Assembly: GCA_019116045.1 (NCBI GenBank)
Contig: DXCK01000073.1
Location: forward strand, 1 to 50,472
DNA length: 50,472 bases
Direction: 5' to 3'
From: Candidatus Bacteroides merdipullorum
GTDB lineage: Bacteria; Bacteroidota; Bacteroidia; Bacteroidales; Bacteroidaceae
Shown here: positions 1-44,046 of the stretch, one piece after another
How positions within the stretch are numbered: the stretch's first letter is position 1
Layout of the letters: each line of letters begins with the position of its first letter
Notes under the pieces: model-generated
The model's input: only the letters and a program-made list of their open reading frames with translations
Database searches by the model: none
Told to the model about the DNA's origin: nothing
Position numbers and translations under genes: made by a program

Positions 1-42
1 CAAGAAGGAGATGTTTCGACTTCGCTGCGCACCCCCTCTTAC

Positions 43-6783: not shown

Positions 6784-7160
6784 CACCCTTGTTAATTGTT
6801 TGATTAGCAATCTCCTGTCGGTTGATTGCTTCTTGTCCGTACGGGGCGTGGCTCTTGTTCGGAAGAGCCGTGCTTCTTGTTCGTGCGAAGCATGCCTCTT
6901 TCGGACTGAGAGTGTTGCCGTCGGGCAAGACTTGTTTTTTCCCTTTTCTTCACAGCAGTGTTGATAATGTTTTTCACCGTTGGTGAAGAAACGGGTGGAG
7001 CGATGACTTTATGAACAGGCTGTTCATTTCTTTTGAACCAGGTAAACCTTTCTTTTAAAGGATGATGAACTTTCCACGGCAGTGTTTGTTAACAAGATAT
7101 TGACTGCGGCTGTTTATTGACATCGTCCGGTGAATAACTACCGTTTGATAAGCTCAGGTT
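6784..7160. other. Gene-free region between the TrmH-like gene and the second YitT gene
   Basis: The region holds the 22-bp-pitch repeat array at 6828-6915, a TGTTGATAA nonamer at 6959-6967, TGTTAACAA at 7087-7095, and a GTGAATAA-type motif near 7130. The inverted pair GTTCATTT / TTTGAAC near 7020-7040 is short. I see no coding or RNA gene. Confidence 0.5.
6828..6915. repeat. 22-bp-pitch intergenic repeat array, locus 1 (four units)
   Basis: Four consecutive 22-bp units begin at 6828, 6850, 6872 and 6894. The second unit contains GGCTCTTGTTCGGAAGAGCC, a perfect 7-bp hairpin with a six-base loop. Units differ from one another at many positions but keep the pitch exactly. The family consensus begins GCTTCTTGTTCGGAAGAGCC and ends GT. 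Related arrays occur at four other intergenic sites in this window. Confidence 0.8.
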
Positions 7161-17442: not shown

Positions 17443-19134
17443 TTACGGGCGTTGGATGAGTTGGTTGGCCCTGTCCAGTGCCACGTTGATGTTCGGACAG
17501 ATGTTTTCTTCGCCCAACAGTTCGTAGAAGCCGGATTTTTGCAGAGCCTGGTGCACTTTCTCGTTCACGCCGCTGAGCACGATGGTTATCTTTTCCTTTT
17601 GCGACATGCGGCAAAGGCTCTCCAGGTTGTGGATGCCCGTTGAGTCGATGAAGGGCACTTTGCGCATCCGCACGACGCGTACCTTCGGTCGGTCACCCAG
17701 CCGTGCCATGACTTCTTCGAACTTGGTGGCGATCCCAAAGAAGTAGGGGCCGTTTATCTCATAGACTTCCACTCCTTCCGGGATGACGATGTGCTCCTCG
17801 TGCGTATCGGCGCCGGTGTCCTTGTTAGGGTCGATTTCGTCTTTAATAACAGAGATTTCCGTCGTCTCCATGACGCGGTGCATGAAGAGGACACAGGCGA
17901 TGACGAGTCCCGCTTCGATAGCGACGGTCAAGTCAAAGACGACGGTCAGGAAGAAGGTGATGAACAACACGGTGACATCGGCCTTGGGGTTGCGCAGCAG
18001 TGCTTTGAACGTGCGCCATCCGCTCATGTTGTAGGCTACCACCGCCAGCACGCCTGCCAGGCAGCCCATTGGGATGTATTGCGCCAGGGGCATGAGCAGC
18101 AGCAGGATAAGGAGCAGGACGACGGCGTGTATGATGCCGGCCACGGGCGTCCGCCCTCCGTTGTTGATGTTGGCCATGGTGCGGGCGATGGCTCCTGTCG
18201 CCGGGATGCCGCCGAAGAGGGGTGCTACGATGTTGGCTGCCCCTTGCGCGATGAGTTCGGTGTTCGAGTCGTGGCGGTCGCCTGTGGCACCGTCGGCCAC
18301 GGTGGCCGAGAGCAGCGATTCGATGGCTCCCAGCACGGCGATGGTCAGCGCGACGGGGAAGAGGTTTTTCACTGCCTCCCAGTCCAGGGCGGGTATGGCA
18401 GCGTCGGGCAGCTCGGCGCGGATGCTGAAGCGGTCGCCTATGGTGTCGATGCCTGTGATGCCCGCATGGGTCTTGAGCAGCCAGACTGCCAGCGTCACGA
18501 CGACTATGGCTACGAGCGAGCCGGGTATCTTTTTGGAGAAGCGCGGGGTGAGGACGATGAGGACGATGCTGGCGAGGCTGACGGCCGTGTTCCACCAGTT
18601 GACCGTGTCGAAGTGGCGGAAGTAGAGCAGCCACTTGCCCACGAAGTCGCCAGGCACCTGCTCGCCGCCGAACTTCAGTCCGAAGATGTCGGCCACCTGC
18701 GTGGTGAAGATGGTGAGGGCGATGCCGCTGGTGAAGCCCACGATGATGGGGTATGGGATGAACTTGATAACGGCGCCCAGGCGGAAGATGCCCAGCAGGA
18801 CGAGGATGACGCCGGCCATGAGCGTGGCGGCGATAAGGCCCGCCTCGCCGTATTGCTGGATGACGCCGTAGACGATGACGATGAATGCACCCGTCGGCCC
18901 GCCTATCTGCACGCGGCTGCCGCCCAGCAGCGAGATGAGGAATCCGGCGATGATGGCCGTGATGATGCCTTTTTCGGGCGATACGCCCGAGGCGATGCCG
19001 AAGGCGATGGCGAGCGGGAGGGCCACGATGCCTACGATGATGCCGGCCATGAGGTCGGACACAAAGGTCTGTTTGTCGTAGTGTTTCAGTGTTTCAAATA
19101 GTTTCGGTCTAAATTCGAAAGCTTTCATAAGCAA
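17443..19134 (-). CDS. SulP family anion permease with STAS domain
   Basis: The 563-residue inner-membrane transporter has the SulP core of 10-14 membrane helices (about 25-420), including the GLYTAI-like start segment VALPLAIAFGIASG and the conserved ANI-APLFGGIPATGAIARTMAN block, then a cytoplasmic STAS domain (about 445-555) with the DSTGIHNL phosphorylation-type loop. SulP members move sulfate, bicarbonate or other anions; which one applies here is not decidable. The promoter lies 25-53 nt upstream. It is the first gene of a two-gene operon with the nuclease at 16525-17430. Confidence 0.94.
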   Translation of the reverse strand: MLMKAFEFRPKLFETLKHYDKQTFVSDLMAGIIVGIVALPLAIAFGIASGVSPEKGIITAIIAGFLISLLGGSRVQIGGPTGAFIVIVYGVIQQYGEAGLIAATLMAGVILVLLGIFRLGAVIKFIPYPIIVGFTSGIALTIFTTQVADIFGLKFGGEQVPGDFVGKWLLYFRHFDTVNWWNTAVSLASIVLIVLTPRFSKKIPGSLVAIVVVTLAVWLLKTHAGITGIDTIGDRFSIRAELPDAAIPALDWEAVKNLFPVALTIAVLGAIESLLSATVADGATGDRHDSNTELIAQGAANIVAPLFGGIPATGAIARTMANINNGGRTPVAGIIHAVVLLLILLLLMPLAQYIPMGCLAGVLAVVAYNMSGWRTFKALLRNPKADVTVLFITFFLTVVFDLTVAIEAGLVIACVLFMHRVMETTEISVIKDEIDPNKDTGADTHEEHIVIPEGVEVYEINGPYFFGIATKFEEVMARLGDRPKVRVVRMRKVPFIDSTGIHNLESLCRMSQKEKITIVLSGVNEKVHQALQKSGFYELLGEENICPNINVALDRANQLIQRP

Positions 19135-19158
19135 ATCCTTAATTTATGTAACGGGCTG

Positions 19159-19187
19159 CAAAGGTAGTTAAAATAGGCCGTCGCAAA
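19159..19187 (-). promoter_or_regulatory. Promoter of the SulP-nuclease operon
   Basis: On the minus strand TTTG (19184-19187) precedes TACCTTTG (19159-19166) with a 17-bp spacer; an alternative TTG gives 22 bp. The -7 element ends 24 nt before the ATG. Confidence 0.7.
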
Positions 19188-19242
19188 ACAATCCGGCTGC
19201 TTTTTTTGTTCTATTTCATGAGGTTTCTTTCGGACAAAAGCT

Positions 19243-19250
19243 TAACTTTG
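19243..19250 (+). promoter_or_regulatory. -7 element of the rubrerythrin gene
   Basis: TAACTTTG matches the consensus exactly and predicts a leader of about 50 nt. A clear -33 TTTG is missing, which may mean activation is needed. Confidence 0.65.
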
Positions 19251-19306
19251 TACGCAAGAGAAATCTTTCTACATTATTTATTTACCAAATAACAATCGAA
19301 CAGATT

Positions 19307-19885
19307 ATGGGAAAAAGTATCAAAGGAACACAGACTGAGAAGAACTTGTTGACATCGTTTGCCGGAGAATCGCAGGCGCGGATGCGTTACACGTATTTCG
19401 CCAGCGCGGCCAAGAAGGAAGGCTACGAGCAGATAGCCGCCATCTTCCTGGAGACGGCAGAGCAGGAGAAGGAGCACGCCAAGCGCATGTTCAAGTGGCT
19501 GGAAGGCGGCATGGTGGAAATCACGGCCAGCTATCCGGCGGGTATCATCGGTACGACGCTCGAAAACCTGCGGGCTGCCGCAGCCGGCGAGAACGAGGAG
19601 TGGACGCTGGATTACCCCAAGTTTGCCGATGTGGCCGATGCCGAAGGCTTCCCCGAAATCGCGCTGATGTACCGCAACATCGCCACGGCTGAAAAAGGAC
19701 ATGAAGAGCGCTACCTCGCTTTCGTGAAGAACATCGAGCAGGGCAAGGTCTTTGCCAAAGACGAGGAAGTGGTGTGGCAGTGCCGCAACTGTGGATACAT
19801 CTACGTGGGCAAGGAGGCTCCGCAGACGTGCCCGGCCTGCCTGCATCCCCAGGCTTACTTCGAGGTAAAGAAAGAAAACTGGTAA
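19307..19885 (+). CDS. rbr: Rubrerythrin
   Basis: Rubrerythrin reduces hydrogen peroxide in the cytoplasm of anaerobes. The 192-residue protein has an N-terminal ferritin-like four-helix bundle with di-iron ligand motifs (ESQARMRY, EQEKEH, and a later EKGHEER) and a C-terminal rubredoxin-like domain with two CxxC pairs (CRNCGYIY and CPACLHP). Length and domain order are standard. It is monocistronic; a repeat array begins about 110 bp after the stop. An oxidative-stress role is well established for the family. Confidence 0.97.
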   Translation: MGKSIKGTQTEKNLLTSFAGESQARMRYTYFASAAKKEGYEQIAAIFLETAEQEKEHAKRMFKWLEGGMVEITASYPAGIIGTTLENLRAAAAGENEEWTLDYPKFADVADAEGFPEIALMYRNIATAEKGHEERYLAFVKNIEQGKVFAKDEEVVWQCRNCGYIYVGKEAPQTCPACLHPQAYFEVKKENW

Positions 19886-19992
19886 AATGTTTCGGTCTTC
19901 CGGCTCACCTGTTGGGTCGGAAGATTTTTTTTGCAGGCGGTTTCCCCGTCTTTTGTTTCCCATGCTGTTTTCCCCATCCTTTTGCGGGCTGT

Positions 19993-20102
19993 GGCCCGTG
20001 TCCGGAAGAGCCTTGTTTCCAGTTCGGAACAGCCGCGCCCGGTGTTCGGAAGAACCGTGGCTGTTGTCCGTCGCAGGCGCCCGCCTTTGGTGCGGACGCT
20101 TT
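19993..20102. repeat. 22-bp-pitch intergenic repeat array, locus 2 (five units)
   Basis: Five consecutive 22-bp units start at 19993, 20015, 20037, 20059 and 20081. The first three share the core TTCGGAAGA or a close variant (TCCGGAAGAGCC, TTCGGAACAGCC, TTCGGAAGAACC) at the same place in each unit. The last two are more diverged but keep phase. The array ends 57 bp before the -7 element of the TM2 gene. Confidence 0.85.
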
Positions 20103-20159
20103 TTTTCGTCCGATTGGTAAAAAAATGATTGATTCATGCGGCGTTTAGGTGGGATTCGT

Positions 20160-20167
20160 TATCTTTG
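20160..20167 (+). promoter_or_regulatory. -7 element of the TM2-DUF2752-DUF4870-M48 operon
   Basis: TATCTTTG is an exact match. An in-frame ATG at 20149 lies upstream of it, so translation must start at 20200. Confidence 0.7.
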
Positions 20168-20199
20168 CGGCATATTCACTGACTAAATCTTCTTATATT

Positions 20200-20535
20200 A
20201 TGGATTCACAGAAAGTAGACGCCTATATCATGGCGAACGGAAAGTTTTTCCACGACTATCAAATCGGAGCCATCCGCGAGCTTCTGCTGGGAGCTGACGA
20301 TGCCAAGTGGCCGATGTTACAAACCCTGCAGTTCAAGGATCCCACCATCACGTTGATAATCTCCATCATCGGCGGTTCGCTGGGCATCGACCGCTTCTTC
20401 GTGGGCGACATGGGCCTGGGCGTCATCAAGCTCATCACGTGCGGCGGCTGCGGCATCTGGACCATCGTCGATTGGTTCCTCATCATGGGCACGGCGCGCG
20501 ACCGCAACATGCAGAAGCTCCAGGCGTTGTTATAA
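20200..20535 (+). CDS. TM2 domain membrane protein
   Basis: The 111-residue protein has a short soluble N terminus (about 1-45) and a C-terminal TM2 domain, made of two membrane helices joined by a tight turn (GGSLGIDRFFVGDMGLGVIK, then a glycine- and cysteine-rich second helix ending IVDWFLI). The position of the promoter fixes the start at this ATG. It is the first gene of a four-gene operon of small envelope proteins; the next begins 10 bp later. TM2 proteins have no agreed biochemical function. Confidence 0.9.
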   Translation: MDSQKVDAYIMANGKFFHDYQIGAIRELLLGADDAKWPMLQTLQFKDPTITLIISIIGGSLGIDRFFVGDMGLGVIKLITCGGCGIWTIVDWFLIMGTARDRNMQKLQALL

Positions 20536-20545
20536 ATAAGTACCC

Positions 20546-20944
20546 ATGACGCGGCGGGCGTTCTACCTGTTGGCGGCGGGCTTGTGTGCCTTGGGTTATG
20601 CGTGGGTGGCTTTTTCGGGAGCAGTTTCCGAGGCGGGCAGCCCATGCCTCTTCCGCTGGCTGACGGGGGTGCCGTGTCCGGCATGTGGCTCCACGCGCGC
20701 GCTGCGGGTGTTGTTGCAGGGCGATGTGGCGCAAGCCTTCCTCATCAATCCCAATGGCATCGTGCTGGCCGTGCTGCTGGTCGGGGTGCCCGTCGGGTTG
20801 GTGGCCGACGCCGTGCGGCGTCGTGCGTCGCTCTACGCTCTTTTCTGCCGGATAGACACGGCGTTGCGGCGCCGGGTATGGTTCGTCGCAGGGGCAGTGC
20901 TGGTGCTGCTCAACTGGATTTGGAATATATATAAAGGAATATGA
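20546..20944 (+). CDS. DUF2752 membrane protein
   Basis: The 132-residue protein has three predicted membrane helices. The family signature GVPCPACGSTRAL lies between the first two, with its CPxCG motif probably at a membrane face. DUF2752 proteins are often found beside TM2 and other small membrane proteins; function is unknown. The stop overlaps the start of the next gene by four bases (ATGA), which indicates translational coupling. Confidence 0.88.
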   Translation: MTRRAFYLLAAGLCALGYAWVAFSGAVSEAGSPCLFRWLTGVPCPACGSTRALRVLLQGDVAQAFLINPNGIVLAVLLVGVPVGLVADAVRRRASLYALFCRIDTALRRRVWFVAGAVLVLLNWIWNIYKGI

Positions 20945-21363
20945 AAGACTACTACGTCCCCCAAGAACACGAACGCGAGGCGGCTGCCCAAAGCTACCTC
21001 ATGTCGCTGCTGGTGGTGATGGTGGGTCTCCCCTTCCCCATCGTCAACCTGGCTGCCACGCTGATTTTCTACCTGGCCAACAGGCACAAGACTTACTTCG
21101 TGCGCTGGCATTGCACGCAAGCGCTGGTGTCGCAGGTGCCGCTCTTCCTCGTCAATTGCGTGCTCTTCTGGTGGAGCGTGCGCATCCTGCTCGACCTTCA
21201 GCCGCTCTCCTCGTTCTATTTCGCCTACCTTTTCACGGTGGTTTTGTTTAACCTGATAGACTTCATCGCCACGTTCCACACCATGGTAGCCGTCAACAAA
21301 GGCCGCCAGGTAGACTGGTATGTCTATGCCCCGCTAACCGACTTGTTATGCAGACCGAAATAA
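20941..21363 (+). CDS. DUF4870-like membrane protein
   Basis: The 140-residue protein has three or four hydrophobic segments and the family-like block YFVRWHCTQALVSQ after the first hairpin. It overlaps the preceding gene by 4 bp and the following protease gene by 16 bp. I place it in the DUF4870/YccF-like group by layout rather than by a strict motif, so the family name is moderately certain and the function is unknown. Confidence 0.8.
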   Translation: MKDYYVPQEHEREAAAQSYLMSLLVVMVGLPFPIVNLAATLIFYLANRHKTYFVRWHCTQALVSQVPLFLVNCVLFWWSVRILLDLQPLSSFYFAYLFTVVLFNLIDFIATFHTMVAVNKGRQVDWYVYAPLTDLLCRPK

Positions 21364-22115
21364 CCAAGACGTTGAAGCAGGCGGCCGTGTCCGTCCTGAT
21401 GTTTGTCGCAGTGCTTTTCGCTTTCTCGCGCGTGGATTGGCTGAATACGTTCGGCCTGAAAGAAACAGTGGTCGAAGATAAGTTGGGCGAACTGTGGTGG
21501 GATGTCTACTCGTCGGACGCTGCCTTTGTAGACGATTCCCTGCGGGTACTCCCCGTCGACTCATTGCTGGACGCGCTGTGCCGCGCCAACGGCATCGACC
21601 GTTCTGCCATCTTTCTCCACCTGGTGGAAGACGAAGAAGTCAACGCCTTCGCCTGCCCCGGCAACCACCTCGTGGTGAACACTGCCCTGCTCGACTCTTG
21701 CCACAGCGCAGACGAACTGTCCGGCGTCATGGCGCACGAACTGGCTCATTTGACGCAGGGACACGTGATGCAGAAACTCGTGAAAGAAATCGGGCTGTCC
21801 GCCCTGGTGGTGATGACGTCTGGCTCTGGTGGCACGGAGACACTGGGCGAAGTCGCACGCGTGCTCACCTCTACTGCTTACGACCGGACGCTGGAAAGCG
21901 AGGCAGACGCCCTGGCTGTGCACTACCTGCTGGCTGCCGGCATTGATCCGAATGCCTTGGCCGACTTCTTGCTCCGCCTTTCTGCCGAAGAAGACTTGCC
22001 TGCCCTGGCCGAGTGGATAAGCACACATCCCGGTTCCGCCGAACGTGCCCGCCGCATCCGCCAACTGGCGGCCGAAGGAAAACAAGCGGAACCCCTCGGC
22101 AAGTTTGCCTTTTGA
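21348..22115 (+). CDS. M48 family metallopeptidase, membrane-anchored
   Basis: This zinc protease resembles the BepA/LoiP/Oma1 group that works on envelope proteins. The 255-residue protein has one N-terminal membrane segment (about 11-27), the zinc motif HELAH at 130-134 and the third ligand E183 in ESEAD (183-187). Its small size, without TPR repeats, is closest to LoiP-like members. It overlaps the upstream DUF4870-like gene and ends the TM2 operon, which suggests that its substrates or partners are the small membrane proteins encoded ahead of it; this is inference. Confidence 0.92.
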   Translation: MQTEITKTLKQAAVSVLMFVAVLFAFSRVDWLNTFGLKETVVEDKLGELWWDVYSSDAAFVDDSLRVLPVDSLLDALCRANGIDRSAIFLHLVEDEEVNAFACPGNHLVVNTALLDSCHSADELSGVMAHELAHLTQGHVMQKLVKEIGLSALVVMTSGSGGTETLGEVARVLTSTAYDRTLESEADALAVHYLLAAGIDPNALADFLLRLSAEEDLPALAEWISTHPGSAERARRIRQLAAEGKQAEPLGKFAF

Positions 22116-22154
22116 AAGCATCCGCCACTCCGTCATCCGGCTCAGCTCTTCCGC

Positions 22155-23528
22155 TTATTGCTCTTCCGGCTTCAGTTTCCCGAGAATCTTTGGAAATTGC
22201 CAAGCGAACAACAGCGTGCAACAGATGGCGGCCGTGGCATCCGAGATGCCCTCGGCAGCAAACACGCCCATGACTCCCAGTCCGTGCGGCAGCACCAATG
22301 CCAGCGGGATGAGCAGAAAGACTTTGCGCAACAGCGCGATGAACACCGAAATCTTGGCTTGACCCAACGCGACGAACATGTTCTGGCACGCCCGCTGCAA
22401 CCCGAAGATGGTCATGCCCGCCAGAAAAACAGGCATCGTCTGGCGAACCGTCGCCAGCAATGCAGGGTCGGTGGTAAAGGCCGATGCCACCACGGTAGGG
22501 AAAAGTATCATCAGCAACATCAGCACCAGGTTGAAGGAAAACATCACCGCCACCGCCACCCGGAAACATTGCTTCACGCGTGCCCTGTCGCCATGTCCGT
22601 AGTTATAGCTGGCTATCGGCACAAAACCTTGTGCAAAGCCCGTCAGCGGTACAGAGGCAAACTGCATGGCACTTTGCAGAATAGCCAATGCGCTGACGTA
22701 GATGTCTCCAAAGCGTTGTAGGCTTCCGTTCAGTACGAATCCAACCATGCTTTCCGTGCTGGCCATGATGAATGGAGATACGCCCAAAGCAAGGACGGAA
22801 AGAATGACACGCCGGTCGGGCTTTAAAAACACACGTTCCAACCGTAGGGAGGCCCTGCGGGAACACAGAAACCCCAGCACCCATGCCGCGCTGCACGCCT
22901 GCGAAACGACCGTGGCAATAGCCGCTCCGCGCACCCCCATGTCCAACACGAAAATGAACACCGGATCCAGCGCGATATTGAGCAAAGCTCCTATCAATAC
23001 CGAATACATGCCGATGGCAGGCCGTCCTTGGGCGTTGATAAACGTATTCAGCCCCACAGACACTTCTACGAAAAGCGTGCCTGCCAAATACACCGACAGA
23101 TAGTCTACCGCATAAGGCAGTGTGCGCTCCGACGCACCGGTCAGCAGCAAGATGGGTTCCATGAACATGTATGCCACCAGCGATGTCAGCACCGTAAAGC
23201 CCACCAGCATCACGAATCCGTTTCCCAAGATACGTCCCGCCCGTTCACGGTCGCCATGTCCCAGTGCCATGGCGGCCAGCGGTGCGCCTCCCCCGCTCAC
23301 GATGGCAGAAAAAGAAGAAATGAGCACAATCACCGAAGTAGTGACCCCTACGCCGGCCAGCGCATCAGTGCCTATGCCGGGGATGTGCCCGATGTAAATA
23401 CGGTCTACAATGGCATAGAGCAGGTTGACGAACTGAGCCATAACTGCAGGCAGTGCCATCCTGAAGACCAGCGGCAGCATCCGTTCGGTGCCCAGCCGCT
23501 CTTCGTAAACTCGGTTATTGGGCAGCAT
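22155..23528 (-). CDS. MATE family efflux transporter
   Basis: The 457-residue inner-membrane protein has 12 predicted helices in two homologous halves, with MATE-typical segments such as FRMALPAVMAQFVNLLYAIV at the first helix and PLTGFAQGFVPIASYNYGHG in the second half. MATE proteins export drugs or metabolites using Na+ or H+ gradients; the substrate is unknown. Its start overlaps the end of nadB by 14 bp, so it is the second gene of a nadB-led operon. It converges on the M48 gene with 39 bp between stops. Confidence 0.95.
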   Translation of the reverse strand: MLPNNRVYEERLGTERMLPLVFRMALPAVMAQFVNLLYAIVDRIYIGHIPGIGTDALAGVGVTTSVIVLISSFSAIVSGGGAPLAAMALGHGDRERAGRILGNGFVMLVGFTVLTSLVAYMFMEPILLLTGASERTLPYAVDYLSVYLAGTLFVEVSVGLNTFINAQGRPAIGMYSVLIGALLNIALDPVFIFVLDMGVRGAAIATVVSQACSAAWVLGFLCSRRASLRLERVFLKPDRRVILSVLALGVSPFIMASTESMVGFVLNGSLQRFGDIYVSALAILQSAMQFASVPLTGFAQGFVPIASYNYGHGDRARVKQCFRVAVAVMFSFNLVLMLLMILFPTVVASAFTTDPALLATVRQTMPVFLAGMTIFGLQRACQNMFVALGQAKISVFIALLRKVFLLIPLALVLPHGLGVMGVFAAEGISDATAAICCTLLFAWQFPKILGKLKPEEQ

Positions 23529-25086
23529 GCGGATAGTCGATGGTGTAGTGCAGTCCGCGACTCTCCTTACGTTCCATGGCTTGTTTGGTGATAAGATACC
23601 CCACGTTTATCATATTGCGCAGTTCGCACAGCTCGCGCGTGGCCTTGCAACTCTTGAACAGGCGTTCCGTCTCTTCGTAAAGGATGTCCAGACGATTCCA
23701 CGCACGGGTCAGGCGGACGTTGCTTCGCACGATACCCACGTACGATTCCATGATTTGGTTCACTTCTTTCATACTCTGGGTGATGAGCACACGCTCTTCG
23801 TTGCTGATGGTTCCCTCATCGTTCCATTCTGGGATATCGGTGTTGAAGTCGTACCGCTCCAATACGCTCAAGGCGTGTTTGGCTGCCGCGTCAGCATAAA
23901 CCACAGCCTCGATGAGCGAGTTGCTCGCCAGACGGTTGCCTCCGTGCAGTCCCGTACATGAACATTCACCGATGGCATATAGCCTGCGTATCGAGCTCTG
24001 TCCGTCCAGGTCGACTTTGATGCCTCCGCACAAGTAATGCGCGGCAGGTGCCACCGGAATATAATCCTTGGTGATGTCGATTCCGATGCTCAGGCACTTC
24101 TGGTAGATGTTGGGGAAATGTCGCTTCGTTTCCTCGGCGTTCTTGTGTGTCACATCCAGGTAGACATGGTCTTCGCCACGCTGCTTCATCTCGCTGTCGA
24201 TGGCTCTTGCGACAATGTCGCGTGGCGCAAGCGAAAGACGCGGGTCGTATTTCTGCATAAATTCCTTGCCGTCAAGCGTGCGGAGCACGGCTCCATAGCC
24301 ACGCATGGCTTCTGTGATAAGGAATGATGGACGGTCGCCCGGGTGGTAAAGCGCTGTCGGGTGGAACTGTATGAACTCCATGTCTTTGACTGCTCCTTTG
24401 GCGCGGTAGACCATGGCGATGCCGTCGCCGGTGGCTACCAACGGGTTGGTCGTATGCCGGTAGACTGCCTCGCAGCCACCGGTGGCCATGACCGTGACTT
24501 TCGAGAGGAAGGTGTCTACTACGCCGGTTTCTTCGTTCAGCACATAGGCGCCGTAGCATTTGATGCCGGGCGTGTGTCGGGTTACGATGATGCCAAGGTG
24601 ATGCTGGGTGATAATCTCCACTGCATAGTGGTTGGTGAAGACCGTGATGTTCGGATGAAGCTTGACCGCTTCGATGAGGCTGGTTTGTATCTCCGCGCCC
24701 GTATTGTCCTGGTGGTGAAGGATGCGGAATTCCGAGTGCCCGCCTTCGCGATGCAGGTCAAAGGTTCCGTCATCTTTCTTGTCAAAGTTCACGCCCCAGT
24801 GGATGAGTTCCTGGATTTGTGCGGGAGCGTTGCGCACCACTTTCTCCACCGCAGCGCGGTCGCTTATCCAGTCACCGGCAATCATGGTGTCTTCGATGTG
24901 TTTCTCGAAGTTGTCCACTGCGAGGTTGGTTACTGAGGCAATACCGCCTTGTGCGAAATACGTATTGGCTTCTTCCATTCCGGCTTTGCAGATAAGGGCC
25001 ACCGAACCTTTGTGCGCCACTTTCAGCGCGAAGCTCATCCCGGCTATTCCAGAGCCGATGACGAGGAAATCGAATTGTCTGACCAT
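23515..25086 (-). CDS. nadB: L-aspartate oxidase
   Basis: NadB oxidises L-aspartate to iminoaspartate, the substrate of NadA, using FAD. The 523-residue protein begins with the dinucleotide-binding motif GSGIAG (11-16), has the flavoprotein signatures HREGGHSEFRILH and EFIQFHPTALYHP, the GGNRLASNSL active-site block, and the C-terminal helical domain found in the succinate dehydrogenase/fumarate reductase flavoprotein superfamily. An in-frame ATG at 25224 is excluded because the -7 element (25108-25115) lies downstream of it. The gene leads an operon with a MATE exporter. nadA is 18 kb away. Confidence 0.97.
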   Translation of the reverse strand: MVRQFDFLVIGSGIAGMSFALKVAHKGSVALICKAGMEEANTYFAQGGIASVTNLAVDNFEKHIEDTMIAGDWISDRAAVEKVVRNAPAQIQELIHWGVNFDKKDDGTFDLHREGGHSEFRILHHQDNTGAEIQTSLIEAVKLHPNITVFTNHYAVEIITQHHLGIIVTRHTPGIKCYGAYVLNEETGVVDTFLSKVTVMATGGCEAVYRHTTNPLVATGDGIAMVYRAKGAVKDMEFIQFHPTALYHPGDRPSFLITEAMRGYGAVLRTLDGKEFMQKYDPRLSLAPRDIVARAIDSEMKQRGEDHVYLDVTHKNAEETKRHFPNIYQKCLSIGIDITKDYIPVAPAAHYLCGGIKVDLDGQSSIRRLYAIGECSCTGLHGGNRLASNSLIEAVVYADAAAKHALSVLERYDFNTDIPEWNDEGTISNEERVLITQSMKEVNQIMESYVGIVRSNVRLTRAWNRLDILYEETERLFKSCKATRELCELRNMINVGYLITKQAMERKESRGLHYTIDYPHAAQ

Positions 25087-25107
25087 GATGTTAACGAGTT
25101 TATGGCG

Positions 25108-25115
25108 CAAAGTTA
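25108..25115 (-). promoter_or_regulatory. -7 element of the nadB-MATE operon
   Basis: TAACTTTG on the minus strand ends 21 nt before the nadB ATG. No clear -33 element is seen. It lies back to back with the promoter of the PH-domain gene. Confidence 0.7.
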
Positions 25116-25132
25116 AGGATAAAGCGCTTTTC

Positions 25133-25166
25133 TTGTACTCGCGTGCAGGGAAAATGCGTATCTTAG
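25133..25166 (+). promoter_or_regulatory. Promoter of the PH-domain gene
   Basis: TTG (25133-25135) and TATCTTAG (25159-25166, one mismatch) are 23 bp apart. The ATG follows 19 nt later. Confidence 0.5.
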
Positions 25167-25185
25167 CGCACAAAATCTTTCGTTT

Positions 25186-25596
25186 ATGAATCGTACTTTC
25201 CACGCCCGGTTGTTGCCCGGGCACTGTCTGTTGCTTCTGTTAGTCGCTTTTCTGGCGGTGTGGTGTCTCTGGGAGAAGCGGCCTGTGCTGGCTGCCGTGT
25301 GGTGCTTGTGGCTGGTGTTTCTGATAGAACGTCTCATCCACACGACTTATACGGTGACGACCGACGGTACGTTGCGTATTGACCGGGGGCGCTTCAGCCG
25401 GCGTCGCGAGCGACCTTTGTCGGACATTGTGGGTGTGGAGCGTGCGTCGTCCATGCAGATTGCCGGGCGTGCATTGGTGCGTTATGTGCTGGTGCGTTAT
25501 TCGGACGGCAAGTTTGATGCATTGTCGCCTGTCAACGAAGAGGAGTTCATCCGGGTGTTGGAGAAACGCTCTCCTACCTCTTTCTCGACGAAGTAG
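25186..25596 (+). CDS. Bacterial PH-domain membrane protein
   Basis: The 136-residue protein has two adjacent hydrophobic segments (about 12-29 and 34-50) followed by a beta-rich domain of about 80 residues that fits the bacterial pleckstrin-like (DUF304/YdbT-type) fold, with the typical TVTTDGTLRIDRGRFSRRRE start. The function is unknown. Its last 100 bp overlap, in antisense, the 3' end of the convergent GT2 gene, so the two C termini are encoded by the same DNA. Confidence 0.8.
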   Translation: MNRTFHARLLPGHCLLLLLVAFLAVWCLWEKRPVLAAVWCLWLVFLIERLIHTTYTVTTDGTLRIDRGRFSRRRERPLSDIVGVERASSMQIAGRALVRYVLVRYSDGKFDALSPVNEEEFIRVLEKRSPTSFSTK

Positions 25597-26504
25597 TGCG
25601 GACGGCGTTTCACTTCCTTGTACATCTTTCCCACGTATTCACCGATGATGCCGCAGGCCAGCAGCACCGAACCTCCGACGAACCAGACAGACACAAGCAG
25701 CGATGTCCAACCGGGCATGACGTCGTGGTTCATATAAGAAAAGAGCGCGTAGGTGATGGTGGCTATGGAGATGAGTACGAACAGCAGACCGAGATAGGTG
25801 ATGTAGCGCAGCGGGCGGGTGGAGAACGAGGTGATGCCGTCGATGGCGAAGCTCAGCATCTTCTTCAGCGGATATTTCGATTGCCCGGCGAAGCGTTCGT
25901 GGCGGTCGTACCACACCGTGGCCGAGGGGTAACCCACCAACGGTACCAGCCCGCGCAGGAACAGGTTGCGTTCGGGAAACGATACGAGAGCCCGGACGGC
26001 GCGGCGGCTCAGCAGGCGGAAGTCGGCGTGGTTGTAGACGATTTGGCCGCCCAGGGCATTCACCAGGCGGTAGAACAGCAAGGCAGTGTTGCGTTTGAAG
26101 AACGTGTCCGAAGCACGCTCCTTGCGCACACCGTACACCACATCTATTCCTTTGCGGAAATATTCCATCATCGGTACGATGGCCTCTACGTCGTCTTGCA
26201 GGTCGGCATCGATGCTGACGGCGGCATCGGCGTGGTTCGCCGCCCATTCCAGTCCTGCCCACAAGGCCCGTTGATGTCCTTCGTTGCGAGATAGTTTCAA
26301 TCCGCGCACCAGCGGATTGCCGATTGCGTACTGCTCGATGAGCGTCCAGGTGCGGTCGCGGCTTCCGTCGTCTACGTAGAGGATGCAGCCTTCGCTGATC
26401 AGTTCCGCTTGTTGCAGGCGGTTCAGGACGTCGGTCAGGCGGGAGGTGGTCTCCGGCAGGACCTCTTCTTCGTTGTAGCAGGGTACGATGATGGCTAAGT
26501 TCAT
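25497..26504 (-). CDS. Family 2 glycosyltransferase (GtrB/DPM1-like)
   Basis: The enzyme should transfer a sugar from a nucleotide donor to undecaprenyl phosphate on the cytoplasmic side of the inner membrane. The 335-residue protein has an N-terminal GT-A domain (about 1-225; DDGSRDRT and the SIDADLQD motif) and two C-terminal membrane helices (about 235-300), as in GtrB and ArnC. It is the third gene of an operon; the ATG overlaps the GtrA stop. The final 25 or so residues beyond the usual family end are read from the opposite strand of the PH-domain gene. Confidence 0.93.
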   Translation of the reverse strand: MNLAIIVPCYNEEEVLPETTSRLTDVLNRLQQAELISEGCILYVDDGSRDRTWTLIEQYAIGNPLVRGLKLSRNEGHQRALWAGLEWAANHADAAVSIDADLQDDVEAIVPMMEYFRKGIDVVYGVRKERASDTFFKRNTALLFYRLVNALGGQIVYNHADFRLLSRRAVRALVSFPERNLFLRGLVPLVGYPSATVWYDRHERFAGQSKYPLKKMLSFAIDGITSFSTRPLRYITYLGLLFVLISIATITYALFSYMNHDVMPGWTSLLVSVWFVGGSVLLACGIIGEYVGKMYKEVKRRPHYFVEKEVGERFSNTRMNSSSLTGDNASNLPSE

Positions 26505-26896
26505 ACGTGTTCTTTCTCCTTTCGTTTAAAAACAAATCTTACCAGTAAGAAGTTCACCGGCACGGCTATGGCAAAGACGGGCAGCGGTGCCCATTCGTTG
26601 CTCAGCCCCACCCAGAGGAAGAGGTTGAGCAATGCGAGGTGCAGGCCGTAGTTCACCGCGTGCGCAGCACCCATGCCGAACAGCTTCGTCCACGACGGAC
26701 GGGTGCGAAACGTGAAGCGTGCCGTCAGGTAGAAGTTGAGCACGAAGCCCGCCAGATAGCCTGCCGTATAGGCGACGTTGACGTTCAGCACATGCTGCAA
26801 CAGCCAATAGACAGCATAGTGTACGCCCGTGGCTGTCACGCCGACGACGGCAAAGCGCACAAACTCACTCCCGATGTCTTTCCGAAGCAGTCTCAT
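26501..26896 (-). CDS. GtrA family membrane protein
   Basis: The 131-residue protein has four membrane helices with the GtrA-typical start FVRFAVVGVTATGVHYAVYW and the GFVLNFYLTARFTF block. GtrA proteins are thought to flip polyprenyl-phosphate sugars across the inner membrane. Its start lies 32 bp inside the end of the GT39-like gene and its stop overlaps the GT2 start by 4 bp. The pairing of a flippase with a GtrB-like enzyme and a GT39/ArnT-like enzyme makes a complete lipid-linked sugar route. Confidence 0.92.
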   Translation of the reverse strand: MRLLRKDIGSEFVRFAVVGVTATGVHYAVYWLLQHVLNVNVAYTAGYLAGFVLNFYLTARFTFRTRPSWTKLFGMGAAHAVNYGLHLALLNLFLWVGLSNEWAPLPVFAIAVPVNFLLVRFVFKRKEKEHV

Positions 26897-28637
26897 CCGG
26901 GGAAGTAATGGTGTTGTCCGGTTTCTTATGGAACTTGCAAAGCAAGATTATCTGTTTCGAGTCGCAACTGCGGTGGCCGCTGTTCCACACCTCTTCCGTG
27001 TCGTAAGTACTTCCGTAGCGTTGCTTGAAGGCTGCGATGTCTCCGTCGCCGGCCACCAGGTATCCCTCCGTGGGGAAGAAGGCGCCGAACGGCACAATAC
27101 GGTTGTCGAGGTAGAAATTCAGCGTGAAGGGGTGCAGGATGTTGTACGACGGATAGTCCGGATGGCAGGAGTAAAGCTCGGCATCCGCCGGCACCAGCGT
27201 AGCGATGTGTTCGGCCACGGGCTTGTCCGACTTCACGCTGAGCACGGCAGGTTGGAACAGTCCGTCCAGCGAGAAGAAGATGGCCAGCGTCAGCCCTGTT
27301 ACAGCGTAGGGCAATGCCTGTGCGTTGTTCCGCCGTGCATGGCGGTAGAAGACGGCAATGCCTGCCACCAGCACTGCCAGCACCAAGATGGCCAGGGGGC
27401 CGATGGGCAACGTTTCGAGCGCTTGCTTGAAAGCGATGTTCTGCGCTGCGTGGCGGCCTGTGCCGAAGATGCTGTCGGGCACCAGTCCGGCTTGCAAGGC
27501 GGCAAACAAGGCCAGCAGGATGACGGACAGTCCGGCGAGCACGTGGCCGAAGGCGCGTACTACGACGCGGTGGTTGCGGCACAGCCACAGGATGTATTCG
27601 GCCAGGAAGAAGGCGATGAACGGATAGATGGGGAGCAGGTAGACGCTCCGTTTGCTCTTGGGGATGCAGTAGAAGACGAAAATCAACACCGTGGCCAGGA
27701 GGGAGAGCAACCGTGCGTCGTCCATGCGGCGGACGGAGTCGCACAAACGTTTCCAAGCGGATTTCAGACCGCCGCTTACCTTTTTGTTATACTTCAGCAC
27801 GAAGAGCGACATCAGCCCCAGCAGCGTGTAGGGCGTCCATCCGGCGAGGACGGTCACTACGTTGTACCACCACGGGTTCTCGTGCGACTCGTAGCTCATC
27901 TTGCCCAGGAAGCGCCAGACGTTTTCTTCCAGTACCAGCGTCAGAAACTCGTCGCCTCCCTGGCGCCAGGCTGCCACGTACCAGAGCATGGGCAATATGC
28001 ACGCTGCCAGCGCGGTGGCGGCGAACAGGCCCAGCAGCCGCCAGAAGTTCCGCCCGCGAATCCACAGAAAGACGGCCACTACCAGGCAGGGCAACACCAC
28101 GCCCACGGGTCCTTTGGTGAGGAACGCTCCGCTCATGCACAGGATGCCCGTCCACGGGATGCCCCGCAGCCCGCGTTCGCCCCACTTGTAGAGCTGGTAG
28201 ATGGCCAGGACGATGAGGGCGGACAAGACCATGTCGACGCGGCAGTTCACGCCCGCGCGGTGTACCTCGAAGTTGGTCAGCGTCAAGAGTCCCATGAGAA
28301 ACGCCACTTCGACCCCGCGCCGTTTGGCAAAGAAGACGTAGCCCACCAGTACCATGACGGCCAGCCAGAAAGCCGAAGGGAAGCGCGAGGTGTATTCGTT
28401 CACTTCGCCTGCCACTGTGGACACGGCGGCGATGCACCAATGGAAGAAAGGCGGTTTGTAGGCCATGTCCACTCCGTTGTTGATGGGCAATGTCCAGTTG
28501 TCTTGTTGCAGCATGGAGAGGGCGACCACCGCTTCGCGCGGTTCGCCTTTGGTGTGGAACGGGGTCTGCCCCAGGAAGAGGAAGAGAGACAGGAAGGTGA
28601 TGGCTGCCAGCAGCCAGAAAAACTTCGTTCGTGTCAT
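26865..28637 (-). CDS. GT39/ArnT-like membrane glycosyltransferase
   Basis: The 590-residue polytopic protein has about 12 membrane helices and the periplasmic first-loop motif HTKGEPREAV, where GT39/GT83 (ArnT, PMT) enzymes carry their catalytic acidic residue. Such enzymes transfer sugars from polyprenyl-phosphate donors to lipid A, glycans or proteins at the periplasmic face. The open frame extends far upstream, antisense to the dihydrolipoyl dehydrogenase gene, but the hydrophobic start MTRTKFFWLLAAI and the -7 element at 28682-28689 place the start at 28637. It leads an operon with GtrA and GT2. The acceptor is unknown. Confidence 0.92.
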   Translation of the reverse strand: MTRTKFFWLLAAITFLSLFLFLGQTPFHTKGEPREAVVALSMLQQDNWTLPINNGVDMAYKPPFFHWCIAAVSTVAGEVNEYTSRFPSAFWLAVMVLVGYVFFAKRRGVEVAFLMGLLTLTNFEVHRAGVNCRVDMVLSALIVLAIYQLYKWGERGLRGIPWTGILCMSGAFLTKGPVGVVLPCLVVAVFLWIRGRNFWRLLGLFAATALAACILPMLWYVAAWRQGGDEFLTLVLEENVWRFLGKMSYESHENPWWYNVVTVLAGWTPYTLLGLMSLFVLKYNKKVSGGLKSAWKRLCDSVRRMDDARLLSLLATVLIFVFYCIPKSKRSVYLLPIYPFIAFFLAEYILWLCRNHRVVVRAFGHVLAGLSVILLALFAALQAGLVPDSIFGTGRHAAQNIAFKQALETLPIGPLAILVLAVLVAGIAVFYRHARRNNAQALPYAVTGLTLAIFFSLDGLFQPAVLSVKSDKPVAEHIATLVPADAELYSCHPDYPSYNILHPFTLNFYLDNRIVPFGAFFPTEGYLVAGDGDIAAFKQRYGSTYDTEEVWNSGHRSCDSKQIILLCKFHKKPDNTITSPDETASERHRE

Positions 28638-28681
28638 GAGGTTCGGGTTCTGCTTAAAGTCTTTATAATAGGGATACTGCG

Positions 28682-28689
28682 CAAAGTTA
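28682..28689 (-). promoter_or_regulatory. -7 element of the GT39-GtrA-GT2 operon
   Basis: TAACTTTG on the minus strand predicts a leader of about 38 nt. No -33 TTTG is clear. Confidence 0.65.
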
Positions 28690-28783
28690 GAGAGTATTCG
28701 TTTACCGTGTGTCATTTTTTTCGTTTTTTTTCGCACTGCGGCCTTCTTTCCTGCTGTTTTCGGTTTCTCCTTGCCGGGGCGTC

Positions 28784-28849
28784 GGCTCTTGTCCGGAAGA
28801 GGCGCGCTCCGTGCGGACAACAGGCACGGCTCTTCCGGACAACAGCCAA
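28784..28849. repeat. 22-bp-pitch intergenic repeat array, locus 3 (three units)
   Basis: Units start at 28784, 28806 and 28828. The first holds GGCTCTTGTCCGGAAGAG and the third GGCTCTTCCGGACAACAGCC, which is close to the reverse complement form of the same unit. A degenerate fourth unit may run to 28871. The array ends about 30 bp before the putative -33 element of the next gene. Confidence 0.8.
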
Positions 28850-28878
28850 CGCCCTGTAAAAACACTGCCGGACAGGGG

Positions 28879-28907
28879 TTGCGGACGGAATTTATTTCGT
28901 ATCTTGC
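28879..28907 (+). promoter_or_regulatory. Weak promoter of the dihydrolipoyl dehydrogenase gene
   Basis: TTG (28879-28881) and TATCTTGC (28900-28907) are 18 bp apart; the -7 element deviates from TAnnTTTG at two bases. Confidence 0.4.
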
Positions 28908-28934
28908 GCCCGAATTGTTTAAACGAAGCATATC

Positions 28935-30293
28935 ATGGATTACCAAGTAGCCATCATCGGGGGCGGCCCTGCCGGATACACGGCCGCCGAGGCCGCCGCA
29001 CGGGCCGGATTCAGTGTAGTGTTGTTCGAAAAGCGTGCCCTGGGCGGCGTCTGTCTGAACGAGGGGTGCATCCCCACCAAGACGTTGCTCTATTCGGCCA
29101 AGGTGCTCGACACGGCGCGTGGGGCGCAGAAATATGCCGTGAGTGTGACAGGCACGTCGTTCGACCTGCCCAAAATCATCGCCCGCAAGCAGAAAGTGGT
29201 GCGCAAGCTGGTGCTCGGCATCAAGTCGCGCCTGACGGCGGGCGGCGTGCACATCGTGGCGGGCGAGGCCGTCATAGTGGACCCACACCACGTGCAGTGC
29301 GACGGACAGGTGTACGAGTGCGACAAGCTGCTGCTCTGCACCGGGTCGGAGACGTTCATCCCTCCCATCCCCGGTGTGGACACGGTGCCCTACTGGACGC
29401 ACCGCGACGCGCTGGAGTGCAAGACGCTCCCCCACTCGCTGGTCGTCGTAGGCGGCGGAGTCATCGGCATAGAGTTTGCCGCCTTCTTCTGTAGTTTGGG
29501 CGTACCGGTCACTGTGGTCGAGATGATGGACGAAATCCTGGGCGGTATGGACCGTGAGCTTGCGGCCTTGCTCCGCGCCGAATACGCCAAGCGTGGCGTG
29601 CGCTTCCTCACCTCCACCCGTGTTGTCTCGATGGAAGGCGATGCCACGGGCGTGCGTGTTGCCGTGGAGAATGTCGACGGCCCTGCCGTGATTGAGGCCG
29701 AACGGGTGCTGCTCAGCGTGGGCCGTCGCCCCGTCATGCAAGGGTTCGGTCTGGAGAACCTGCCGCTGGAGAAGACCGAGCGCGGATGCCTGCGCGTCGA
29801 TGCCCACATGCAGACCTCCCTGCCCGGCGTCTATGCCTGCGGCGACCTGACGGGACAGTCGCTCCTGGCCCACACCGCCGTGCGCGAGGCTGAAGTGGCT
29901 GTGCACCACCTGGCCGGACAAGCCGACGAGATGTCCTACCGCGCCATCCCCGGTGTAGTCTATACGAACCCCGAGATTGCGGGCGTGGGCGAGACGGAAG
30001 ATGCGCTCCAGCGCCGCGGCATCCCCTACCGCGCCGTCCGCCTGCCCATGGCCTACTCCGGCCGTTTTGTGGCTGAGAACGAGGGCGTCAACGGCGTGTG
30101 CAAGCTGCTGTTGGGCGAGGGCAACGCCGTCTTGGGCGTGCACGTCCTGGGCAATCCCGCTTCGGAAATCATCACCCTGGGCGGCATGGCCATCCAGCTC
30201 GGACTGACGGCCGACGCCTGGGCCCGGATGGTCTTCCCCCATCCCACGGTGGGCGAAGTGTTCAAAGAAGCGTGTGCGGAAGGAATCCTCTAA
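28935..30293 (+). CDS. lpdA: Dihydrolipoyl dehydrogenase (E3) family flavoprotein
   Basis: E3 reoxidises dihydrolipoamide using FAD and NAD+. The 452-residue protein has the FAD motif GGGPAGY (9-15), the redox-active pair C40 and C45 in GGVCLNEGCIPTK, the NAD-binding GGGVIGIEFA segment, and the C-terminal FPHPTVGEVF with its catalytic His. No lipoyl domain is fused. No 2-oxo acid dehydrogenase, BCKDH or glycine-cleavage gene is adjacent, so the partner complex is not evident. A short DUF2007 gene follows 10 bp later and is probably co-transcribed. Confidence 0.93.
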   Translation: MDYQVAIIGGGPAGYTAAEAAARAGFSVVLFEKRALGGVCLNEGCIPTKTLLYSAKVLDTARGAQKYAVSVTGTSFDLPKIIARKQKVVRKLVLGIKSRLTAGGVHIVAGEAVIVDPHHVQCDGQVYECDKLLLCTGSETFIPPIPGVDTVPYWTHRDALECKTLPHSLVVVGGGVIGIEFAAFFCSLGVPVTVVEMMDEILGGMDRELAALLRAEYAKRGVRFLTSTRVVSMEGDATGVRVAVENVDGPAVIEAERVLLSVGRRPVMQGFGLENLPLEKTERGCLRVDAHMQTSLPGVYACGDLTGQSLLAHTAVREAEVAVHHLAGQADEMSYRAIPGVVYTNPEIAGVGETEDALQRRGIPYRAVRLPMAYSGRFVAENEGVNGVCKLLLGEGNAVLGVHVLGNPASEIITLGGMAIQLGLTADAWARMVFPHPTVGEVFKEACAEGIL

Positions 30294-30303
30294 AGAAACA
30301 GCC

Positions 30304-30738
30304 ATGGAAAAGACCGTAAAACTCATCACGTGCGATGATGCCTTCCGCGCCCACCTCATACAAGGGGCGCTGGACAACGAGGGAATCCCCTCCGTCATCC
30401 ACAACGAAAACACGTCCAACGTCATGCGCGGTTTTGTCAGCAACCTGTCGGGCGTCGACGTGCTGGTCTACGAAGCCGACTACCAGAAAGCCCTCGACCT
30501 GCTGGAGCAGAACCAGATGGTGGGCGAACAACTGAGGTTCTGCCCCGTCTGCGGTTCGGAAGACATCCGTTTCGGCTTGAAGAAGGGCAAACGTCTGAGG
30601 GCCTTCCTGGCCGCTGTCCTGGCTTTGTTTTCCATGACTCCCCCGGGCACCGCGCATTGGGAGTGGCATTGCCGTCGCTGTGGTGCGCGCTTCGAGCAGC
30701 CCGTGTCCCGGAGCCATCGGCCGGAACAGAAAGATTGA
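30304..30738 (+). CDS. DUF2007 domain protein with C-terminal zinc ribbon
   Basis: The 144-residue cytoplasmic protein has an N-terminal DUF2007 domain (about 1-70; the ferredoxin-like GlnB-related fold annotated as putative signal transducer) and a C-terminal split zinc ribbon with CPVCG near residue 80 and CRRCG near 125, separated by a hydrophobic stretch. I chose the ATG at 30304, 10 bp after the preceding stop; an earlier ATG at 30274 lies inside that gene and adds residues outside the domain. The function is unknown. Confidence 0.85.
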   Translation: MEKTVKLITCDDAFRAHLIQGALDNEGIPSVIHNENTSNVMRGFVSNLSGVDVLVYEADYQKALDLLEQNQMVGEQLRFCPVCGSEDIRFGLKKGKRLRAFLAAVLALFSMTPPGTAHWEWHCRRCGARFEQPVSRSHRPEQKD

Positions 30739-30767
30739 ATCACCGGATATATTAGATAAGTAAAGAA

Positions 30768-33418: not shown

Positions 33419-33437
33419 GGGTTTATCGGATAAAGTG

Positions 33438-33474
33438 AAAGCCCGCCAAGCTTGGTTTGCTTGGGCGGGCTTTT
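33438..33474 (+). terminator. Terminator after dacB
   Basis: AAAGCCCGCC-AAGC pairs with GCTT-GGGCGGGCTTT (one bulged base) and is followed by TTTT. It may also serve the convergent CoA-transferase gene, since the A-run precedes the stem. Confidence 0.9.
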
Positions 33475-33519
33475 GTGTGTGCGGTCCGTCGGCAGGTGCG
33501 ACGGTCGGGAGCGATGCCT

Positions 33520-35016: not shown

Positions 35017-35064
35017 GGTCTTGTTCAGTATAATTTCTTTTGATGTGAATGTTCCGGTTGCTTC

Positions 35065-35454
35065 TCAGTATTTCCGTTTCAGTATTTCGCTCCAGACGAT
35101 GGCTCGGCGCACGTCGTCGGGCGAGCGCAGTTGGTAGTCGTCGGCATCCGTGTCGTTCGGTGTGCCGGGGGTGGGGGTGTACGGAGCCTTTGGCTGCGTG
35201 GTGGTGCGCAGGCCTTCGGGGCGCGTCACGGGCTTGGGCCGCACGGCAGGCTCCGGCTTGCTGGCGGGGCCGACGGGGATGTAGCCGCCGTACGTCCCGT
35301 CTTCTTCCTCCGGGGTGGGGAAGGGGGGCACGGTGTCGGCCTGCGGGCGGGGCGGTTGTTGTGCCGCCTTCTTTTTCGCTTCTTTTTGGCTTTGCCTGAC
35401 GATGCCGATTACCACGACTGCGGCAACGAGCAGGAATTTCAGAAAGTCTTCCAT
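35065..35454 (-). CDS. Small proline-rich single-pass membrane protein
   Basis: The 129-residue protein has an N-terminal membrane helix (about 5-19), a Lys/Gln-rich segment, and then a proline-rich, probably disordered tail. I recognise no domain; proteins of this plan are annotated as hypothetical in Bacteroides. It sits upstream of the CoA-transferase gene. Two -7 elements precede it, the nearer only 4 nt from the ATG. Coding potential is supported by the intact frame, the promoter position and the membrane helix right after the start. Confidence 0.72.
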   Translation of the reverse strand: MEDFLKFLLVAAVVVIGIVRQSQKEAKKKAAQQPPRPQADTVPPFPTPEEEDGTYGGYIPVGPASKPEPAVRPKPVTRPEGLRTTTQPKAPYTPTPGTPNDTDADDYQLRSPDDVRRAIVWSEILKRKY

Positions 35455-35458
35455 ACGG

Positions 35459-35487: not shown

Positions 35488-35730
35488 AGGAATATTTCCG
35501 TTTAAATTAAGGATTGATAATTAAAAATTGAAAATTGGCCGCAGAAGGTCTTCGACAGACGTCCGGCCGTCCCGAACACGGGGCGTGGCTACGTCGGACA
35601 CGAGGCACGCTTATTCCGAACACGAAGCACGCCCGTGTTGAGTAGGGGCCGAGGACCGCGTGCGGGGCGGGCAGGGCGGGGCAGAGGAAGTTGTGTCTGA
35701 ATGGTTTACAAAACGGGTGGGGCGGATACG
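35488..35730. other. Gene-free part of the 35455-35949 divergent region
   Basis: The 495-bp gap between the small membrane protein gene and miaB holds two -7 elements, an A/T-rich run with AATTAAAAATTGAAAATT near 35519-35537 (the same kind of run occurs, inverted, before metK), the repeat array at 35561-35648, the candidate small RNA and the miaB promoter. I see no protein gene that I would support. Confidence 0.5.
35561..35648. repeat. 22-bp-pitch intergenic repeat array, locus 4 (four units, inverted orientation)
   Basis: Units start at 35561, 35583, 35605 and 35627. The third reads GCACGCTTATTCCGAACACG; its reverse complement carries the family core GTGTTCGGAA. Pitch is exactly 22 bp throughout. 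Confidence 0.75.
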
Positions 35731-35807: not shown

Positions 35808-35813
35808 AGCAGA

Positions 35814-35924: not shown

Positions 35925-35949
35925 CACCGAAAAACCAATATTGCAACGT

Positions 35950-43902: not shown

Positions 43903-43946
43903 GCTTCTTTCGGACAAGAGCTGCGCTTCTTACGGACAAGGGACAA
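43903..43946. repeat. 22-bp-pitch intergenic repeat array, locus 5 (two clear units)
   Basis: Units start at 43903 and 43925, both reading GCTTCTT then a variable base and CGGACAAG. A degenerate unit may precede them (43881-43902). The array ends about 50 bp before the metK -33 element. Confidence 0.7.
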
Positions 43947-44032: not shown

Positions 44033-44046
44033 CAGCCGATTACGAA

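Follow-up and report, generated by a model that had tools for sequence, protein, structure and literature searches.

The window, that is, the whole 50,472-nucleotide stretch of DNA analysed here, is contained in a 2.55-Mb draft genome of Candidatus Bacteroides merdipullorum that is 77% complete, and has a G+C content of 55.5%. Five short arrays of a repeated unit lie between its genes (Table 1), and the genes that adjoin them are functionally unrelated. The array at 19993 sits between a terminator-like hairpin and the next presumed promoter: the sequence TATCTTTG, which we take to be a Bacteroides-type -7 box, follows it and thus places the array upstream of the presumed promoter. In all five cases a TAnnTTTG-like box is found to the right of the array, at a distance of 51-287 bp. 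The original prediction had named five arrays, and five are present, with two corrections. At 19993 it counted five units, of which four score and the fifth (20081-20102) does not; the array reported to start at 35561 is real, but was read 4 bp off register and begins at 35565. Two of the arrays differ from their counterparts in the genome of Bacteroides sp. ET71, which is 99% complete. The middle unit of the 28784 array has the opposite orientation there, an in-place inversion among the matches listed, and the counterpart of the 43903 array has four units.

Table 1. Arrays and neighbouring features in the window.
Feature	Position	Strand	Description	Context
Array	6828..6915	+	4 units (6828, 6850, 6872; the fourth, 6894, weak and inverted), 22-bp pitch	Between SpoU-methylase gene and YitT-like gene; in place in G113 (Bacteroides sp. 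ET71)
Terminator-like hairpin	19896..19932	+	With T run; read by eye	3' of rubrerythrin gene
Array	19993..20080	+	4 units, 22-bp pitch	Between rubrerythrin gene (end 19885) and TM2-domain gene (start 20200)
Presumed -7 box	20160..20167	+	TATCTTTG	80 bp downstream of 19993 array
Array	28784..28849	.	3 units (+,-,-)	Between divergent PMT_2 and Pyr_redox_2 genes
A/T-rich repeats	35504-35536		14-bp period	Adjoining a window array
Array	35565..35628	-	3 units, 22-bp pitch	5' of radical-SAM/TRAM gene starting 35950
Array	43903..43944	-	2 units	Upstream of S-adenosylmethionine synthetase gene (44211) and its SAM-II riboswitch
SAM-II riboswitch	44044-44103		63.9 bits	Directly downstream of 43903 array, 5' of S-adenosylmethionine synthetase gene
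A/T-rich repeats	44174-44200		14-bp period	Adjoining a window array

The unit approximates GSYYCKT-GTNCGN-AMGRRSC, a 20-bp quasi-palindrome of two 7-bp arms around a 6-bp core, followed by a 2-bp linker, and we refer to the main dispersed family of the window as the TGTYCG family. Across the merdipullorum genome the pattern TGTYCGNA-N(2..32)-TGTYCG has 78 matches against 20 for its reversed control; 45 of these have a pitch of 22, every other pitch accounting for 4 at most, so that the periodicity is above chance. In a weight-matrix scan of 336 kb of stretches from this genome, the only distances within 120 bp that separate the starts of same-strand units are 22 bp (68 pairs), 44 bp (33) and 66 bp (2). 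For units on opposite strands the distances are 20/42/64 or 24/46/68 bp, so that the palindromes stay in the 22-bp register whichever way they face; two further pairs at 2 bp represent one unit scored on both strands. Self-comparison of the same genome's stretches without any motif gave 32 events at lag 22 (28 in main-family arrays and 4 elsewhere) and 13 at lag 44, with 0-3 at lags 19-21, 23-25 and 33. The exact 22-bp pitch first noticed in the window is therefore kept even across inverted units. Among the 53 multi-unit arrays, 35 have three units, 9 have two and 9 have four; the 25 single-unit matches, 16 of them inside genes, were left out of later counts. Units of the same array agree at 13.7 of 22 positions and units of different arrays at 13.0. 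This near equality speaks against recent local duplication, and is in line with the earlier proposal of selection on spacing rather than recent copying.

A home-made gene caller applied to the fetched stretches placed 52 of the 53 multi-unit arrays between genes, which extends to the wider genome what had been said of the window, where all five are intergenic. As the stretches were picked for holding the motif, densities derived from them are not genome averages. The 49 arrays for which both neighbours were called divide into 19 divergent, 28 tandem and 2 convergent sites; available intergenic positions are divergent, tandem and convergent in 40/53/7%. A preference for promoters was considered and rejected on these counts, and we claim no preference beyond the space available. 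Some DNA unique to the merdipullorum genome or to ET71 breaks off at the edge of an array or close to it (L062, L102, L007; in the merdipullorum genome L040 and L036), and the ORFs in one-genome-only DNA beside arrays (L062, L102, L081, L007) look ordinary by eye. The right flanks of L020:2781 and L033:2733 are alike over 97 bp at 95% identity, perhaps as a duplicated segment.

Comparison with ET71, whose identity to the merdipullorum genome is about 94% in most syntenic stretches (86-97%), allows selection on the arrays to be assessed. Of the 53 multi-unit arrays, 37 were compared and 36 are in place in ET71. This figure includes 27 of 27 ET71 regions that were fetched for their motif and are thus biased by choice; in the regions located without the motif, by synteny or DNA search, arrays are held by 9 of 10, the exception being L036:2730. 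Overall substitution in the arrays (12.8%) resembles that at third codon positions (12.5%) and in 60-bp flanks (15.0%). Within the core, by contrast, 0.9-2.8% of units differ at positions 8, 11 and 12, and 30% at position 13. For 102 orthologous units, a set restricted to gapless units with at most nine differences, the motif score is 20.62 bits in the merdipullorum genome and 20.60 in ET71, against 13.09 +/- 0.40 in a neutral simulation. For the motif-blind arrays, where all gapless units were kept (10 arrays, 25 units), it is 19.1 against 12.9 +/- 0.9. The motif of the arrays is probably under selection, being retained between the two genomes beyond neutral simulation; gene conversion between arrays would also preserve it. 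When a strict two-unit pattern was run against named genomes, a set that may lack the closest kin of the window's genome, 20 of the 21 loci came from ET71 and the other from an uncultured Prevotellaceae.

Do the arrays act as DNA or as RNA? The 7-nt arms of many units could, as read from the sequence, pair around a 6-nt loop, and elements forming three stem-loops in transcripts would fit the hairpin role that had been raised at the outset. Arm-arm Watson-Crick pairing is at the shuffled expectation at every arm position (all z from -1.8 to 1.7), in 149 units picked by score as well as in 159 in-register units, and neither pairing between adjacent units nor outer pairing is any better. This absence of covariation indicates DNA rather than RNA pairing. 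Only the SAM-II riboswitch and a cut-off tRNA exceed the Rfam gathering score in the window, the arrays having no match, and transcription of the array between divergent genes seems improbable, so that we regard RNA hairpins as a highly improbable explanation. The half-sites favour the same alternatives on both sides yet vary independently, as the sites of a protein dimer would. Together with the retention of the motif, these symmetric half-sites suggest that the protein-binding role envisaged among other options is the likely one.

Two further explanations dispense with a bound protein. Neutral minisatellites generated by replication slippage have the lowest probability of all in our estimation. 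Repeated slippage, which the original prediction had offered as an alternative, does occur, since exact 22-bp differences separate the merdipullorum genome and ET71 at L011/L087 and L038/L069 among the matches listed; it does not explain the pattern, in which the motif score is kept against neutral simulation, neighbouring units hardly resemble each other more than distant ones and inverted units stay in register. The arrays might instead be remnants of a mobile short repeat of the MITE, REP or BrickBuilt kind that spreads in bursts and is replaced by new families in other species. One family is common across the genome and families are species-specific, as such a history would predict, and tandem repeats of 22, 23 and 41 nt are reported in Porphyromonas gingivalis (PMC4596501). 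BrickBuilt of that species, a minisatellite/MITE with 19 loci, a 23-nt unit and up to 22.8 copies (PMC4596501, PMC5771137), which has a leader/tail and IS5-like terminal inverted repeats, is the nearest known repeat. On those accounts it shares with our arrays the intergenic, dispersed location, imperfect tandem repetition, a near-equal unit length and the order of bacteria, but its unit is 23 nt and here the unit is exactly 22 bp and mostly present three times. The 150-bp flanks of the 53 arrays contain no match to the BrickBuilt terminal-repeat pattern, and only two flank pairs are alike. BrickBuilt is thus set apart by unit length, flanks and terminal repeats, the features on which it was compared. 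The strict two-unit pattern has no match in viral contigs, and viral carriage was rejected as a candidate on that account. REP/BIME elements, which are associated with RAYT transposases, are short intergenic palindromes of high copy number and species-specific sequence, a description that suits the arrays as well; they differ from the arrays, which show an exact head-to-tail pitch and stems without compensated changes. The Y1 transposase (PF01797) has no match in the merdipullorum genome (77% complete) or in ET71 (99%) and has a match in one of 12 genomes, which agrees with the first impression that these are not REP sequences. Persistence in place in ET71 (36 of 37 regions compared, 27 of them picked for the motif) and retention of the motif also count against mobility, and we consider a mobile origin distinctly unlikely. 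Nor do the units resemble a CRISPR, again as first judged: they abut with 2-bp linkers, differ among themselves and enclose no unique spacers. Taken as a whole, these observations make it very probable that the arrays are DNA sites which bind a protein and are subject to selection.

In other species the words of the arrays change, and place and pitch stay. A G149 stretch (L129) is syntenic to positions 18227-37332 of the window at 82-85% identity, and all three comparable arrays (19993, 28784 and 35565) persist in place there at 22-bp pitch, with different arms and a similar core, GTGCGG. At the locus of the 28784 array, which was read in 22 other species, 22-bp-pitch arrays of other words are seen by eye in G149, G181, G121, G094 and G133, those beyond the five having been examined less closely. 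In motif-free counts, lag 22 is the most frequent in the merdipullorum genome (31 events), ET71 (29), G149 (6), G181 (5), G133 (5) and G094 (3) and is barely ahead in G121 (3 events against 2), where some stretches were picked for their array and the wholly masked contigs L136, L139 and L143 were left out. Twenty 20-kb stretches of other Bacteroides gave 8 events at lag 22; lags 23 and 46 follow with 5 and no other lag exceeds 4, which makes the signal weaker there; other families of the order have no peak at lag 22 (2 events). Beyond what the window alone had revealed, other Bacteroides thus carry 22-bp-pitch arrays of other words. In G123, another Bacteroides, TGTCCGNAGATATCTCCGTCCTTGTCCG and its variants are dispersed over 13 places, with TGTCCG at the same 22-bp spacing. 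L165 of G054, from another family of the order, has arrays of 23-bp pitch at 8227 and 9629 that have one word in common and a period near that of BrickBuilt.

Which protein might read such sites? HU-HIG proteins (PF18291) are a known family of HU-like DNA-binding proteins, described in Pfam as an HU domain fused to a wHTH, Ig, or Glycine-rich motif. A PF18291 search returned 12-27 matches in six Bacteroides genomes; two others have 23 and 33, and G059, which belongs to another family, has 17. Thirteen further genomes have 1-6 weaker matches each, and most of the ones that were read are canonical HU. Within 600 bp 5' of the start, 61 of 79 HU-HIG loci (22/30, 16/20, 7/9 and 16/20 in the separate batches) have an array with a pitch of 20-24 bp; five of these arrays are more than 300 bp away and may be due to chance (L192, L201, L204, L235 and L301, L235 being without a readable ORF). 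Two of the misses, L236 and L237, are a canonical HU and a weak PF14848-type match. The same search found an array upstream of 59 of 426 long control ORFs, some of which are not genes as both strands were used, of 6 PF14848 loci out of 24, with HU-HIG genes at two of these six, and of 1 of 21 canonical HU loci, where the start was misread in six, including the positive (Fisher p for HU-HIG against ORFs, PF14848 and canonical HU: 6e-29, 6e-6 and 1e-9). In 31 of 55 cases the HU-HIG arrays start near a -7-like box, against 7 of 55 for a control shifted 400 bp upstream, and this position suggests autorepression.

The words of the HU-HIG arrays are mostly gene-specific, close orthologues mostly sharing them and paralogues mostly not; the ET71 paralogues L217 and L233 do have words in common. 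Both GAATCATTGCCGATGATTC and TAAAGTATGATACTTTA are common to HU-HIG orthologues of the merdipullorum genome, ET71 and G149. Three of the four gene pairs that are more than 0.8 similar have nearly identical words (15.4-16.8) and one pair is weakly alike (12.0). For the 31 genes that have 22-bp arrays, protein similarity and array similarity show a rank correlation of 0.18, for which the closest pairs are responsible; 2000 permutations gave an sd of 0.057 and a maximum of 0.257. In the orthologues L212 and L221, which are 90% identical, the array words differ in part, as do residues of the N-terminal arm, and the promoter flanks are alike. A sequence search against solved structures gave no match for two HU-HIG proteins.

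Some of these array families recur away from HU-HIG genes. In 41 x 131 comparisons between arrays of HU-HIG loci and other arrays, 17 exceeded the 0.999 shuffled quantile, where about 5 are expected. With arrays seen twice at one locus left out, three recurrences are strong (13.8-16.0; null maximum 11.8). The family of ET71 gene L234 recurs in the merdipullorum genome at L018:4772, that of G133 gene L191 at L140 and that of ET71 gene L224 at L101, which may be a remnant, as the merdipullorum genome has an HU-HIG gene at that place. The array at L018:4772-4940 comprises about seven 22-bp units of a non-main family and is flanked by two ORFs, presumably recJ- and recQ-like. The TGTYCG family itself was found beside no HU-HIG gene of the merdipullorum genome (17 matches checked by coordinates, the nearest candidate being a single 16.9-bit unit at L212) or of ET71 (all 23 matches read, single units of at most 14.3 bits), and the words of the G149 counterpart are absent from 15 further G149 HU-HIG loci among the 27 PF18291 matches of that genome. 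The proposal of an HU-HIG-type protein for the main family draws on shared geometry for this reason. The proteins at L229 and L231, two loci at which no upstream array was found, are candidates for such a reader. PF14848 proteins were tried as its binder and rejected, their 24 loci having no main array and a best single unit of 12.6 bits. The window arrays have the pitch of the HU-HIG-associated class (20-24 bp, mostly 22 bp); as no main-family words stand beside HU-HIG genes, we regard them as working like that class rather than as members of it. Two contrasts separate the groups: the words of HU-HIG orthologues are often the same in ET71 and G149, whereas those of the dispersed family have changed, and HU-HIG arrays start near -7-like boxes, whereas the window arrays lie well upstream of theirs.

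The lack of main-family arrays beside HU-HIG genes, the different position relative to presumed promoters and the unrelated functions of the genes next to the window arrays favour a binder from outside the HU-HIG family, a dimeric regulator or nucleoid protein whose sites would share only their geometry with the HU-HIG arrays. The identical 22-bp pitch and palindromic units of the HU-HIG arrays, and the recurrence of some of their families elsewhere, weigh against it, and we hold such a binder to be rather unlikely. That most HU-HIG genes carry look-alike arrays upstream makes docking by HU-family proteins likely. Judged on sequence, the whole reading, in which the arrays are putative docking arrays with a selected motif for a dimeric, histone-like protein of the HU-HIG type, seems to us evenly poised between right and wrong.

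What might HU-HIG docking arrays do? We propose that HU-HIG proteins may bind these arrays with one dimer per 20-bp unit, all on one helix face, and that binding beside HU-HIG genes would cause autorepression. The dispersed family of the window would then be the genome-wide target of an HU-HIG protein whose specificity shifts between species. Since the window arrays lie upstream of presumed promoters, a boundary or chromosome-organising role would fit them better than classical repression. More tentatively, and with less confidence than we place in docking itself, the dozen or more HU-HIG paralogues of a Bacteroides genome might be sequence-specific chromosome markers, each reading its own palindromic word every two helical turns and repressing its own gene. 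One member, or close kin, might mark dozens of transcription-unit boundaries, and when its reading arm changes the arrays would be rewritten genome-wide, position and pitch being kept.

Repeated sites of one protein are familiar from operator arrays such as plasmid iterons and mycobacteriophage stoperators. They resemble the present arrays in a pitch near two helical turns, or in dispersed sites with group-specific sequence, and differ in that dozens of chromosomal loci are involved here and words are swapped between species while place and pitch stay constant. None of the open-licence papers that our searches returned deals with arrays of this kind, whether in Bacteroides or next to HU-HIG genes, or with upstream arrays of fixed pitch and paralogue-specific words. 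If the proposal is correct, a binding code would be at hand for a large HU-like protein family, without a study in the searched literature, in dominant gut bacteria, and HU-HIG specificity would become testable by simple DNA pull-downs. The arrays would also be a bacterial example of binding sites that change in concert across a genome while staying in place, a process comparable to the turnover of eukaryotic satellites, and a starting point for studying the organisation of Bacteroides chromosomes. Many HU-HIG and PF14848 proteins end in a common short tail, SGQGTFG (NPLG in G133).
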